Source: Bosea sp. (in: a-proteobacteria)
Lineage (GTDB): Bacteria > Pseudomonadota > Alphaproteobacteria > Rhizobiales > Beijerinckiaceae
DNA length: 64,000 bases
Direction of reading: 5' to 3'
Assembly: GCA_023910605.1 (NCBI GenBank)
Contig: JAAVVV010000001.1
Location: 3,028,698-3,092,697 of the forward strand
The translations under genes were made by a program, and so were the position numbers. Under the pieces are notes generated by a model. The model did no database searches. It was not told the DNA's origin and saw only the letters and a program-made list of their open reading frames with translations. Below are positions 153-36,465 of the stretch, one piece after another (positions within the stretch are counted from its first letter, which is position 1; each line of letters starts with the position of its first letter).

Positions 153-820
153 GCGCCCGTGACGAGATCATGCTGTCCATACGCCGTTCGCTCGCCGTGA
201 CGGGCAAGGAGGCTCCGCGCCGCCAGGCGGTCGATGAGCGCATCGATCGCGCGCCCCGCGGCGTGGTGGTGGAGCGCAGCCAGCTCACGGGCGAAGCGCG
301 CCTCGCCCTGTTCCGCCAGATGGCGGAGGCCACATTCGCCACCGTCGTCGCAGTGGACAGCGCGTCCGAGGTGCCGGGCGAGGTGGCCAGCTATCTGCGG
401 AATCACAACCTGCCCGCCACGATCCGCATGGGCGATGATCTCAGGCTGAAGGCCATGCCCTGGCAGTCCACCGCCCTCGATATGGCGAGCGGCCCCAGCG
501 ACGGGCGCGACCTCAACAGCGTCTGCTATGCCTTCGCAGGCGTGGCCGAGACAGGCACGCTCGTGCTCACATCGGGCTCCGCCAACCCCACCACGCTCAA
601 TTTCCTGCCTGACAACCACATCGTCGTGGTCAACGCGCGCGACATCGCTGGCGACTATGAGGAGATGTGGACACGGCTTCGCTTCGCCACCGGCAAGGGC
701 GAGATGCCGCGAACGGTCAATTGGGTCACAGGCCCTTCGCGATCGGGCGACATCGAGCAGGTGCTGCTGCTGGGCGCGCACGGGCCGCGCCGCGTGCACA
801 TCATCCTCGTGGGCAACTAA
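149..820 (+). CDS. lutC: LutC/YkgG family lactate utilisation protein (LUD domain)
   Basis: 223 aa, one LUD domain over nearly the whole length. Diagnostic segments are GVAETGTL (residues 131-138), PTTLNFLPDNHIVVV (147-161), GPSRSGDIEQ (195-204) and LGAHGPR (208-214). LutC is the third component of the LutABC system that oxidises L-lactate to pyruvate in the cytoplasm; its exact chemical role in the complex is less clear than that of LutA/B. The start is the ATG overlapping the lutB stop by 4 nt, so the two are co-translated. No terminator is obvious before the convergent regulator gene that ends 33 nt downstream. Confidence 0.9.
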   Translation: MSARDEIMLSIRRSLAVTGKEAPRRQAVDERIDRAPRGVVVERSQLTGEARLALFRQMAEATFATVVAVDSASEVPGEVASYLRNHNLPATIRMGDDLRLKAMPWQSTALDMASGPSDGRDLNSVCYAFAGVAETGTLVLTSGSANPTTLNFLPDNHIVVVNARDIAGDYEEMWTRLRFATGKGEMPRTVNWVTGPSRSGDIEQVLLLGAHGPRRVHIILVGN

Positions 821-853
821 GCGCCGAGCCCCGGCCGGCGCCCTGCGCGGCGA

Positions 854-1471
854 TCATTCCATCACCGCGGCCTTCAGGATGCAGACCATGCTGGCCTCGC
901 CCGGCCCCTCGCTGATGCAGCGCACGGTATGGGGCCGGTCGCAGCGATAGCGCAGCGTCTCGCCGGCCCTGGCCCGCTGGATCACGCCGGCCACATCCAC
1001 TTCGAACTCGCCGGAGGTGACCGAGAGGCACTCGACCGAGCCGCGCTGATGGCCCTCGGATTCGAGCTGGCCGCCCGTCTCGGACGAGACGGCGTACCAT
1101 TGCAGCCATTCCACCGTCTTGATCCAGCCGACGATGGCCAGGCGCATCTTGCCATCTTCCGAAACGAGGATGGGCGTGTCGGCCTTGGTCGACTTCTCGA
1201 TGAAGGCCTCTTCCTCGGCGTCGGACAGCACGCGCTCGATCGACACGTCGAGCGCCTGCGACAGCCGCCAGATGGTGGCGAGGGTCGGGTTGGTCTCGTT
1301 GCGCTCGATCTGGCTGATGATCGACTTGGCCACGCCCGATTGCTCCGCCAACTCCGAGAGCGACAGGTTGTAGGCCTTGCGCAGGCGCTGGATCGTCTTG
1401 CCGAGATTGCCCGAGATGATCTGCGCGCCGCTCTCCAGCTCGCGGGGCTTGTCCTTGATCTCGATGCCCAT
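854..1471 (-). CDS. XRE-family transcriptional regulator with C-terminal cupin domain
   Basis: 205 aa. An HTH of the Cro/C1 type spans about residues 24-82, with the recognition-helix stretch VAKSIISQIERNETNP at 47-62, followed by a cupin-like beta domain from about 100 to the end. This architecture is common in regulators of small-molecule uptake or catabolism, where the cupin senses the ligand. It lies 180 nt downstream of, and on the same strand as, an MFS and an EamA transporter gene, and converges on lutC; either could be its target, but no operator was recognised. The specific ligand cannot be inferred. Confidence 0.85.
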   Translation of the reverse strand: MGIEIKDKPRELESGAQIISGNLGKTIQRLRKAYNLSLSELAEQSGVAKSIISQIERNETNPTLATIWRLSQALDVSIERVLSDAEEEAFIEKSTKADTPILVSEDGKMRLAIVGWIKTVEWLQWYAVSSETGGQLESEGHQRGSVECLSVTSGEFEVDVAGVIQRARAGETLRYRCDRPHTVRCISEGPGEASMVCILKAAVME

Positions 1472-1651
1472 CAGGCCTCCGTTTCGTCGTGTCGCGCCCG
1501 CGGCGCGGTCACTGCCCCGCTGTCCGTCAAAACGAACATGCGTTTGTCATTAAGGACGAACCATGCCCGCGATGGCGGCTGGGCGCAAGCCTTGGCGCGG
1601 ATCGAACGAGGGGAGCCGCAAGCGGCTCGACCAAGCACGCGAGCCTGCTGT

Positions 1652-31846: not shown

Positions 31847-31922
<76 letters not shown>

Positions 31923-32171: not shown

Positions 32172-33044
32172 ATGCGCACCCTGATGACGTCGCGGCCGGT
32201 CCTGGCAGGCATCCTGTTCATGCTGTCGGGCATGTTCCTGTTCTCGGTCAACGATGCGATCGGCAAATGGCTGGTCGCCACCTATACGGTAGGCCAGCTG
32301 CTGTTGATCCGCTCGATCGCAGCCATGGCCGTGCTGGCTCCTGCCGTGGCGCGCGAGGGCTTGGGCACGGTGCTGAACCCGCCCCATCCTGCGCTCCAGG
32401 CGCTGCGCGTGGCGATGTCCACGCTCGAGATCGCCTTCTTCTACTGGGCACTGACCTATCTGCCGCTTGCCGAGACCGTGACCTTCTATCTCGCGGGCCC
32501 GATCTATGTGGCGCTGCTGGCCCGGCCCTTCCTGGGCGAGACGATCAGCCCCCGCCGCTGGATCGCCATCGCGATAGGCTTTCTCGGCGTGCTGATCGCG
32601 CTCAACCCCGGCGGCGCGGCCTTCGGCTGGCCTGCGTTGATCGCCATCGCCAGCTCGCTGGCCTTCGCCGGGATGATGATCATCACCCGCCAGCTCAAGG
32701 GCACGCCCGACACAACGCTGGTGTTCTGGCAAACGGGCGCCGCGCTCGCCCTGGGCGCGGTGCTGGCCCCCTTTGGCTGGGTGGAGCCCAGCCTGCGGGA
32801 TTATGCGCTTCTCGGCATGCTGGGCGTGGTGGCGCTGTTCGCGCATATCTTCACCAACAAGTCGCTCAAGCTTGCCCCCGCCTCGACAGTGGTGCCCTAT
32901 CAGTACACCCTGATCGTCTGGGCCGTGATCCTGGGCTATCTGGTCTTCGGTGACGTGCCACCCGCCTCCACCTTCATCGGCGCCGTCATCATCGTGGCTG
33001 CGGGCGTGTGGATCTTTTGGGACGAGCAGAAGAAGCCGGTCTGA
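32172..33044 (+). CDS. EamA/DMT-family permease
   Basis: 290 aa, about ten TM segments in two EamA halves. Typical features: MLSGMFLFSVNDAIGKWLV in TM1, TYLPLAETVTFYLAGPIYVA after TM4, and YQYTLIVWAVILGYLVFGD in the second half. Substrate unknown. It starts 250 bp from the tRNA and ends 5 bp from the phhA relic on the other strand. The window holds three EamA genes; this one is closest in length and layout to the one at 33769-34674. Confidence 0.88.
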   Translation: MRTLMTSRPVLAGILFMLSGMFLFSVNDAIGKWLVATYTVGQLLLIRSIAAMAVLAPAVAREGLGTVLNPPHPALQALRVAMSTLEIAFFYWALTYLPLAETVTFYLAGPIYVALLARPFLGETISPRRWIAIAIGFLGVLIALNPGGAAFGWPALIAIASSLAFAGMMIITRQLKGTPDTTLVFWQTGAALALGAVLAPFGWVEPSLRDYALLGMLGVVALFAHIFTNKSLKLAPASTVVPYQYTLIVWAVILGYLVFGDVPPASTFIGAVIIVAAGVWIFWDEQKKPV

Positions 33045-33048
33045 GCCC

Positions 33049-33528
33049 TCACGCCGCCCGCTTCGCTCGGTGGTAGGCGCCGTCGCCGGTCGCGATCACG
33101 CGGTCACCCGGCTCCATCTCAGCCGGCGCCAGCATGCGCTGGCCGGCGATGGCCTTGCGCACGCGGCGGAGCGAGGCCCCGTCAAGCGGGGGCATCTTGT
33201 CGAACGCCTCAATGACGAAGTAGCTCTCCTGATAATCGTCAATGCGGTAATCGGTACGCATCACCCTGCCCTGGTCGAGAGCGATGCGGTGCGGCGAGGC
33301 GCTTTCCAGCGCAAAGAGCGTTTCTCCCGGCGATGAGGCGATCCCCGCCCCGAAGATCCGCATGCCGTCCCCTGTGGCGATGAGCCCGAACTCGACCGTG
33401 TACCAGTAAAGCTGCGCCAGTTGCTTGAGTTCGTCCGCGTCGCGCGCCTTGAGGCCTGCCTCGCCATAGGCCTGGATGAAATCGGCATAGGCTTGGTTGG
33501 TCAGCAGCGGCACATGCCCGAAGAAGGC
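33049..33528 (-). pseudogene. phhA: Phenylalanine 4-hydroxylase remnant (C-terminal part)
   Basis: The frame reads FFGHVPLLTNQAYADFIQAY, QLYWYTVEFGLIATGDGMRI, FGAGIASSPGE and RVMRTDYRIDDYQESYFVIE, all typical of the C-terminal half of bacterial phenylalanine-4-hydroxylase (normally about 260-300 aa). One iron-ligand His (in FGHVP) and the ligand Glu (TVEFGL) remain. The N-terminal half, including the first ligand His of the HExxGH motif, is gone: upstream sequence turns at about 33525 into another gene's coding DNA on the opposite strand. Only a GTG at 33513 could start translation. The product would lack iron binding and is presumably inactive. Confidence 0.85.
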
Positions 33529-33756
33529 TGGCGCACGAGGCTGGTCGAGCGGCTGAAGCTCTTCGACGAGGCGGTGGCATGCTGGGCGCTCTCGGGCGAG
33601 GTGGACCTGCTGCTGCGCTGCGTCGCGTCCGATCTCGATGCCTATGGCGAGTTTGCGATGAACCGGCTGCTGACGCTGCCGGGCGTGGCTGATGTGCGGT
33701 CGAGCTTTGTCATGGGCCTGGTCAAGCCCGATCGCGGCCTGCCCCTCCCGCCATGA
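33529..33756 (+). pseudogene. Lrp/AsnC-family regulator remnant (C-terminal part)
   Basis: The plus-strand frame ending at 33756 reads FDEAVACWALSGEVDLLLRC, SDLDAYGEFAMNRLLTLPGV and ADVRSSFVMGLVK, the RAM ligand-binding half of an Lrp/AsnC protein. No HTH half exists upstream; the frame enters the antisense of phhA instead. A few residues before CWALSGE also look deleted. In related genomes phhA often lies next to and divergent from an lrp-type regulator, so a single deletion could have removed both 5' halves and the shared promoter. Confidence 0.7.
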
Positions 33757-33768
33757 GCGTAAGTCAGC

Positions 33769-34674
33769 CTAGGCGCCGCGATTGCGGGCCTTGTTGGCCC
33801 GCGCTTCGGCCAAGAGGTTCACGCAGACCCCGCCGATGACGACAGCGGCGCCCAGCAGCACGGGCAATTCCGGCGTCTCGGCATAGAACATCCAGCCGAT
33901 CAGCGCGATCAGCGGCACGCGCAGGAAATCGATCGGGATGACCAATGTCGCGTCGCCATGGCGGAAGGCGTTGGTGAGGCAGTAATGCGCGAGAAAGCCC
34001 GTGACGGCGATGCCCAGCGCCGGCAGCCACAGCGCAGGATCAAGCTTGCCGACGATCAGCGGCGAGTGGCCCATAGCCATGTTCGCCACCATGTTCATCG
34101 GCAATTGCATCAGGTTCATCCAGAACATGATGGTCCATGTCGCGTTCGAGCCCGTGAGGAATTTCGTCGTGGTGATCTGGACGCCGAAGAACACAGCCGC
34201 CATCACCACAGCCAGCGCCTCGGGCCGGAAGCTCTCCATGCCGGGCCTGAGGATGATGAGCACGCCCGCGAAGCCCAGCGCGATGGCGATGGCGCGCGGT
34301 AGCGTCATGCGCTCCTTCAGGAAAAAGACAGCGAACAGCGCCACCCAGGCTGGCGTAGTGAACTCGATGGCGAACACCGTCGCCAGCGGCAGCACGGTCA
34401 CGCCATAGACCCACAGCGCCTGGCCGATGAAATGGGCGACGTTGCGCAGTCCGTGGATGGCCGGGCGCGCCATGCGGACGGTCTGCTGGGGGTTTGGCGC
34501 CAGCAGCATCATGCCGGCGAGGATGACAAGGCCGCCTATGTTCCGGATCGCCAGCATCTCGAAAACGGTCATCGCGCCCTGAAGGCCCCGCACCGACAGC
34601 GCGACCCCCGCGAAGGAGACGAGCGAGCCGAGCATCCAGGCGAGGACGAGAAGGTGCTTGCGGGCGATGGGCAT
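33769..34674 (-). CDS. EamA/DMT-family permease
   Basis: 301 aa, ten predicted TM segments. Sequence marks: MLAIRNIGGLVILAGMMLLA, VLPLATVFAIEFTTPAWVAL and ERMTLPRAIAIALGFAGVLI; the C-terminal half repeats the EamA fold. Substrate unknown. The stop is 12 bp from the end of the lrp relic. A conserved acidic or charged substrate residue could not be picked out. Confidence 0.88.
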   Translation of the reverse strand: MPIARKHLLVLAWMLGSLVSFAGVALSVRGLQGAMTVFEMLAIRNIGGLVILAGMMLLAPNPQQTVRMARPAIHGLRNVAHFIGQALWVYGVTVLPLATVFAIEFTTPAWVALFAVFFLKERMTLPRAIAIALGFAGVLIILRPGMESFRPEALAVVMAAVFFGVQITTTKFLTGSNATWTIMFWMNLMQLPMNMVANMAMGHSPLIVGKLDPALWLPALGIAVTGFLAHYCLTNAFRHGDATLVIPIDFLRVPLIALIGWMFYAETPELPVLLGAAVVIGGVCVNLLAEARANKARNRGA

Positions 34675-34823: not shown

Positions 34824-36362
34824 TTACTCCGCAGCTTGCGGATGCACCCGCGCCCCACGCGCCTCGAGCTTGTTGAGCGCCATCAGATAAGCCCGCGCCG
34901 ATGACACAAGCGTGTCGGGGTCGGCACCGCGCCCGGTCACTGAGTTGCCGTCACGGCTGAGGCGCACGGAGACTTCCGCCTGCGCGTCCGTGCCCTCGGT
35001 GACGGCATGGACCTGGTATAGCTCCAGAGTGACCTCATGGGGCATGATCGCCTTGATGCAGTTGAAGGTGGCGTCCACCGGGCCATTGCCCTCCGCCTCC
35101 TCGGTCACGATGCGCCCGTCGATCTCGATCTTCATCGTGGCGCGTTGCGGTCCCCGCGTGCCGGCGATGACTGACAGCGAGACCAGCTTGGCTCGGTCAT
35201 GCGCAGTGGCGATGTTGTCGTCCACCAGCGCCTCGATGTCCTCGTCATAGACATGCTTCTTGCGGTCCGCGAGCGCCTTGAAGCGCACAAAGGCATCCTC
35301 GACCTGATTGTCGCCGAGGTCGTAGCCAAGCGTCTTGAGCTTGTCCTTGAAGGCGGCGCGGCCCGAATGCTTGCCCATCACCAGCGAGGTTTTTTGCACG
35401 CCCACCGATTCCGGCGTCATGATCTCGTAGGTGGACTGGTTCTTCAGCATGCCGTCCTGATGGATGCCGCTCTCATGGGCGAAGGCGTTACGGCCCACGA
35501 TCGCCTTGTTGTATTGCACGGGGAAGGAGGTCGCGGTGGAGACGGTCTTGGAGGCGCGCGTCAGCATGCGCGCGTCGATGCCCGTCTCGTAGGGCAGCAC
35601 GTCGCCGCGCGTGCGGATCGCCATCACCACCTCTTCCAGCGCGGCATTGCCGGCCCGTTCGCCGATGCCGTTGATGGTGCATTCGATCTGGCGCGCGCCG
35701 CCGTCGAGCCCGGCCAGCGAGTTGGCCACCGCGACGCCCAGATCATTGTGGCAATGGACCGAGAACACCGCCTTGTCGGAGTTGGGCACGCGCTCGCGCA
35801 CATCGGCGAACATGCGGCGATATTCGTCCGGCATGGCGTAACCGACCGTATCGGGCAGGTTGATGGTGGTGGCGCCGGCCTTGATCGCGGTGTCCACGCA
35901 GCGGCACAGATATTCGATCGGCGTGCGGGTTGCGTCCATCGCGGACCACTCCACATCCTCGACGAGGTTGCGCGCCCGCGCCACCGTCGCGGCGATGATG
36001 TCGAGCACTTCCGCTTCCGTCTTCTTCATCTGGTGCGCCAGATGGATCGGCGAGGTCGAGACGAAGGTGTGGATGCGCCCGCGCTGGGCGACCTTCACGG
36101 CCTCGCCGGCACGGTCGATGTCCGCGTTGATGGCGCGGGCCAGGCCCGCCACCGTGGCGCGCCTGAGGCGCCTGGCGATGGCGTTCACGGCCTCGAAATC
36201 ACCGATCGAGGCGATGGGGAAGCCCGCCTCGACGATGTCGACGCCCATGGCGTCGAGCATGTCGGCGATCTCGAGCTTTTCCTCGAAGGTCATGGTGGCG
36301 CCGGGGCACTGTTCGCCGTCGCGCAAGGTGGTGTCGAAGATGACGACGCGGTCTTTGGCCAT
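34824..36362 (-). CDS. leuA: 2-isopropylmalate synthase
   Basis: 512 aa. The catalytic DRE-TIM barrel starts with VVIFDTTLRDGEQCPGATMT (residues 6-25) and includes the metal-binding HCHNDLGVAVANS; the C-terminal LeuA dimer domain that binds feedback leucine is present (about 385-500). It condenses acetyl-CoA and 2-oxoisovalerate, the first step of leucine synthesis. ATG 36362 was chosen as it begins MAKDRVVIFD. A leucine-rich leader reading frame and competing hairpins lie 136 nt upstream, consistent with attenuation control. Confidence 0.96.
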   Translation of the reverse strand: MAKDRVVIFDTTLRDGEQCPGATMTFEEKLEIADMLDAMGVDIVEAGFPIASIGDFEAVNAIARRLRRATVAGLARAINADIDRAGEAVKVAQRGRIHTFVSTSPIHLAHQMKKTEAEVLDIIAATVARARNLVEDVEWSAMDATRTPIEYLCRCVDTAIKAGATTINLPDTVGYAMPDEYRRMFADVRERVPNSDKAVFSVHCHNDLGVAVANSLAGLDGGARQIECTINGIGERAGNAALEEVVMAIRTRGDVLPYETGIDARMLTRASKTVSTATSFPVQYNKAIVGRNAFAHESGIHQDGMLKNQSTYEIMTPESVGVQKTSLVMGKHSGRAAFKDKLKTLGYDLGDNQVEDAFVRFKALADRKKHVYDEDIEALVDDNIATAHDRAKLVSLSVIAGTRGPQRATMKIEIDGRIVTEEAEGNGPVDATFNCIKAIMPHEVTLELYQVHAVTEGTDAQAEVSVRLSRDGNSVTGRGADPDTLVSSARAYLMALNKLEARGARVHPQAAE

Positions 36363-36465
36363 GGATCTGTCCTCAGGGCTTGCCGGCTGCTTCACGGAGC
36401 TGTGGTCTGGCGGCGCGCGGCGGATGGGTTCAGGGGGTCTCGTCGGAAAGCTGGTTGCGCTTCGT

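Follow-up and report, generated by a model that had tools for sequence, protein, structure and literature searches.

A probable recent deletion across a divergent phhA/lrp gene pair in Bosea sp.

The remains of two genes lie back to back in Bosea sp., and we consider it very probable that they were left by a recent loss-of-function deletion of 746 bp across a divergent phhA/lrp pair. The DNA that was analysed, hereafter the window, is a stretch of 64,000 nucleotides of the genome that we call G000. Positions 33045-33768 of the window coincide exactly, by the list of open reading frames, with the interval that separates two complete convergent genes for DMT-family transporters, and both remnants are found within this gap (Table 1). 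In the ancestral state, an intact phhA gene (minus strand) and an intact lrp/asnC gene (plus strand) would have stood divergently between the convergent DMT genes, beside leuA. A single deletion of 746 bp, with the short matches CCGAA and CCGA(A/G) at its ends, would then have removed 125 codons from the 5' end of phhA, 82 codons from that of lrp and the 125-bp promoter region in between. The outcome would be two tails with neither promoters nor starts of their own, from which functional protein would not be expected. We infer a single event; a deletion in several steps that ended at the same junction may also have led to this form.

Table 1. Features of the phhA/lrp locus and its neighbours (positions in the window)
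Feature	Position	Strand	Evidence
DMT-family transporter gene, complete (left flank)	32172..33044	+	290-aa ORF; flanks the site in G069 and six sister species too
phhA remnant, codons 126-282 and stop codon	33049..33522	-	PF00351 match; 74% aa identity to G069 PhhA
Deletion junction, CCGAA	33518..33522		in G069, CCGAA at base 629 (left copy) and CCGAG at base 1375 (right copy), separated by 746 bp
lrp/asnC remnant, codons 82-159 and stop codon	33520..33756	+	PF01037 match; 92% aa identity to G069 Lrp
DMT-family transporter gene, complete (right flank)	33769..34674	-	301-aa ORF; also in G069 and six sister species
leuA (2-isopropylmalate synthase), conserved neighbour anchoring the locus	34824..36395	-	523-aa ORF; near phhA/lrp in congeners and Microvirga L037

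Both fragments were identified by Pfam at E-values far beyond chance. The minus-strand fragment matched positions 169-277 of the 331 in the Biopterin_H profile (PF00351, E 9e-25), and the plus-strand fragment matched positions 9-71 of the 73 in AsnC_trans_reg (PF01037, E 2e-17). An earlier note on this DNA had read them as the C-terminal half of a phenylalanine hydroxylase and, back to back with it, the ligand-binding half of an Lrp/AsnC regulator; both identifications were confirmed by the profiles and by alignment with the proteins of the sister species G069. Of a phenylalanine hydroxylase of 282 residues, the final 157 remain in the phhA tail, which falls short of a full-length Biopterin_H catalytic domain. 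The lrp tail retains the C-terminal 78 residues of an Lrp/AsnC regulator that is 159 residues long. It is recognisable as a RAM/AsnC effector domain, most of which is kept and the first part of which is missing. Its N-terminal helix-turn-helix is gone: the tail has no counterpart to residues 1-81 of the G069 homologue, and in it Pfam matched the effector domain alone and no helix-turn-helix. The homology of both genes ends sharply and at the same place, as the note had said, although this place is 33518-33523, slightly to the left of the 33525-33535 that it gave. The only tRNA gene of the window, tRNA-Lys (ctt), occupies 31847-31922, upstream of the left DMT gene by about 250 bp.

The comparison with G069 carries the deletion interpretation. 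On contig C255 of this genome, phhA (163-1008, minus strand, 282 aa) and lrp (1134-1610, plus strand, 159 aa) are intact and divergent, with the same DMT gene on each side of the pair as in the window, and with leuA. Residues 126-282 of the G069 PhhA align to window positions 33522-33052, and residues 82-158 of the G069 Lrp align to 33520-33750. In blastn, the window matched bases 112-633 of the contig and then jumped sharply to 1375-1606; in G069 a distance of 746 bp separates the corresponding breakpoint bases. Counted after CCGAA, the missing block comprises 375 bp of phhA (125 codons), 125 bp of intergenic DNA and 246 bp of lrp (82 codons). The proposal of the earlier note, that both 5' parts had been deleted along with the promoter region between them, matches this one block. 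Since one 746-bp deletion converts the G069 arrangement into that of the window, the intact pair at the same site supports the single-deletion interpretation. G069, whose copy is the only intact one at this site, is a draft genome (480 contigs, 88% complete). The note had named relatives with the same truncated form as an observation that would speak against its reading; the fused phhA/lrp junction was found in none of the 66 congeners searched.

The note had also suggested that relatives be used to locate the breakpoints and any microhomology. The alignment of the phhA-lrp locus placed the breakpoints, and CCGA(A) was common to both. The match is 4 exact bp (CCGA), or 5 bp if the last base of the right copy was A in the ancestor; since the DNA of G069 is 12-22% diverged at both tails, the ancestral breakpoint bases are themselves a reconstruction. 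Random breakpoint pairs in the same sequence shared at least 4 bp in 2.8% of trials. The microhomology is a modest, suggestive signal, which hints at a mechanism without proving it. The event resembles short-repeat (illegitimate) bacterial deletions in its few shared breakpoint bases and in having no mobile element at the junction, but its match of 4-5 bp is only modestly above chance. We infer replication slippage or alternative end joining. Ku-dependent end joining, the classical bacterial NHEJ, is unlikely, since a search of the genome found no Ku protein.

The recency proposed by the earlier note holds, while the long open frames on which the note had relied are weak evidence for it. In substitution-only simulations at a neutral divergence of 0.4 substitutions per site, stop codons were still absent from the phhA tail in 12% of cases and from the lrp tail in 34%, and open frames were therefore rejected as evidence of recency. 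Over both tails, dN/dS between G000 and G069 was 0.19 (0.13-0.28), similar to that of the flanking genes (dmt2, 0.18; leuA, 0.12). With nine congeners that have intact genes as outgroups, the excess dN of the G000 branch over the G069 branch was 0.013 (-0.026 to 0.044). The share of the G000 branch evolving neutrally since the split from G069 was estimated at 0.05 (-0.08 to 0.16); the estimate presumes constant selection before the deletion, and its interval includes zero, which means no clear excess and is compatible with a small one. Derived changes favoured third codon positions (5, 5 and 13 at the three positions in phhA; 1, 1 and 10 in lrp). Because nonsynonymous change shows no clear excess on the G000 branch, the deletion would be recent: the point estimate corresponds to 5% of the branch after the split from G069, and the upper bound to about 16%. 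Within that bound the tails show little change since inactivation, and their intact orthologues occupy the corresponding site on C255 of G069, a close relative; both are marks of a recent pseudogene.

A full-length Biopterin_H match occurred in 17 of the 66 other genomes of the genus, the closest being that of G069. In five larger-genome congeners the phhA/lrp pair lies about 0.2-2.7 kb from leuA, and in Microvirga (L037) it lies 0.7 kb from leuA, with an Lrp that is 62% identical. Because of this linkage in the five congeners and Microvirga, the pair beside leuA is most likely ancestral. Six sister species (G060 and G064-G068; L126-L131 and L154-L159) have the convergent DMT genes directly adjacent, either 25-33 bp apart or overlapping by 10 bp at their 3' ends (G064, G065 and G067), and the phhA/lrp pair is absent from the site. 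No Biopterin_H match was found anywhere in these six genomes, which are drafts at 85-99% completeness. At least two losses of the pair are probable, a complete one in the lineage of the six sisters and a later, partial one in G000. A distinct phhA type (GVKFLARLNWYTIEFGL) is present in part of the genus (L002, L003 and similar loci: G022, G023, G055, G063, G078, G080), with about 66% DNA identity to the window tail and other gene neighbourhoods. The genomes of G000 and its closest sisters measure 3.2-3.9 Mb, against 4.3-7.6 Mb in most other members of the genus, which suggests a small-genome clade with reduced genomes.

These histories bear on how the deletion is to be placed. In trees built from rpoB, gyrB, parE and the locus genes, the six empty-site species were grouped with a support of 91. 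The best tree joined G000 with these six and left G069 outside, with a support of 93 for the core genes and 77 with the locus genes, and a grouping of G000 with G069 was not rejected (AU p 0.08 for the three core genes, 0.37 with the locus genes). The best tree would accommodate an old deletion in the common ancestor of G000 and the six sisters, after which the six would have lost the tails and the window would preserve a shared intermediate of a two-step loss. We regard this as quite improbable, since the tails would have been unconstrained over most of the branch, against a neutral share of 0.05 that reaches 0.16 at most, and since the derived changes of both tails are still weighted to the third position. 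A shared intermediate is disfavoured by the lack of a clear excess of amino-acid change, and the low neutral share on the G000 branch argues that the losses in G000 and in the six sisters were separate events. Another reading concerns the earlier history and can hold alongside the deletion, which it does not alter: the pair might have been inserted between the DMT genes in the ancestor of G000 and G069 only, so that the six sisters, with their DMT genes 25-33 bp apart or overlapping by 10 bp, show the original arrangement. Such an insertion is unlikely, though worth keeping in mind; the linkage of the pair to leuA in the five larger-genome congeners and in Microvirga speaks against it.

It might also be asked whether anything was lost at all. 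An artefact of assembly at the junction, with an intact pair in the real genome, is hardly credible, since the chromosome is a single contig of 3.76 Mb rated 100% complete, the breakpoints lie inside coding sequence and outside any repeat, and the junction repeat of 4-5 bp is far too short for an assembly collapse. The tails might instead have been retained as useful half-proteins, for example an Lrp effector domain without its DNA-binding domain, and the two open frames and the low dN/dS are formally compatible with continuing constraint. We hold this to be highly improbable: the low dN/dS is explained by constraint that preceded a recent deletion, the effector domain of the lrp tail lacks its first part, and no sigma-70-like promoter was found in 32900-33900, the last being weak evidence from a search that left ribosome-binding sites unscored. 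In a narrower form, the effector-domain tail of 78 residues would still be made and would have a role without DNA binding, such as mixing with the seven other Lrp/AsnC-family proteins, a case that is barely conceivable.

A recent deletion across both genes would have clear consequences for the two proteins. The phhA tail aligns from residue 141 of the Chromobacterium violaceum enzyme (PAH, 1ltu), F-G-H being residues 141-143. The iron ligands of this enzyme, His138, His143 and Glu184 in the established numbering, form a triad of two histidines and one glutamate, of which the tail keeps His143 and Glu184 and lacks His138, the first histidine of HDxFGH. Because the first of the three iron ligands is gone, the phhA tail is predicted to be incapable of forming a normal metal site. 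Judged from the sequence, both tails should yield no functional protein, since the enzyme is without one iron ligand and the regulator is without its DNA-binding domain. A phhA copy elsewhere in the genome was rejected, as the sole PF00351 match is the phhA tail itself; the Lrp/AsnC effector domain was matched at seven other places. The conversion of phenylalanine to tyrosine would thus appear to be lost. Because proteins with PDH_N, HPPD and pterin-4a-carbinolamine dehydratase (PCD) are present in the genome, tyrosine synthesis and degradation through HPPD probably go on without phenylalanine hydroxylation. Joint loss of the cofactor-recycling PCD with phhA was rejected, PCD being present in 67 of the 67 genomes of the genus regardless of whether phhA is. 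Outside the window, at C1:198702-200413 of G000, a complete HPPD gene (minus strand) adjoins an Lrp/AsnC-family gene on the opposite strand, with the matched stretches about 440 bp apart; this is likely a second divergent pair of an Lrp gene with aromatic catabolism, apparently intact. G069 shows the reverse of G000, with phhA kept and HPPD below the cut-off (best 197 bits, cut-off 277), an absence that is uncertain in a genome 88% complete.

Divergent asnC-type genes and phhA were noted in 2005 in Xanthomonas axonopodis and Mesorhizobium loti, and an Lrp/AsnC protein was suggested as the ancestral regulator of the pathway (PMC1173090). An Lrp homologue was divergent from phhA within 700 bp in 23 of the 87 loci that we examined, seven of them from this genus, and the lrp gene product is likely the regulator of phhA. 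The adjacent divergent layout of X. axonopodis and M. loti is also that of G069, of the larger-genome congeners and of the inferred ancestor, whereas in G000 both genes are truncated by one deletion. Young bacterial pseudogenes, for example the set from Salmonella studied by Kuo and Ochman (PMC2916853), are known to be removed rapidly. The present case is like that set in its recent inactivation and little degradation, with six sisters of G000 already without the sequence; it differs in organism and locus, and in that one event strikes two genes through their divergent promoter.

The phhA/lrp remnant represents gene loss of an ordinary bacterial kind. It adds one more instance to a known process and leaves the general view of gene loss unchanged, and it is unusually well documented through the intact copy in a sister species. 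It offers a clean, datable case of a small deletion that, by spanning a divergent promoter, silences both a catabolic enzyme and the regulator of that enzyme. With the intact pair of G069 and the six empty sisters beside G000, several stages of gene loss can be seen in one small-genome clade. For the organism itself, the prediction is that it should not hydroxylate phenylalanine to tyrosine.
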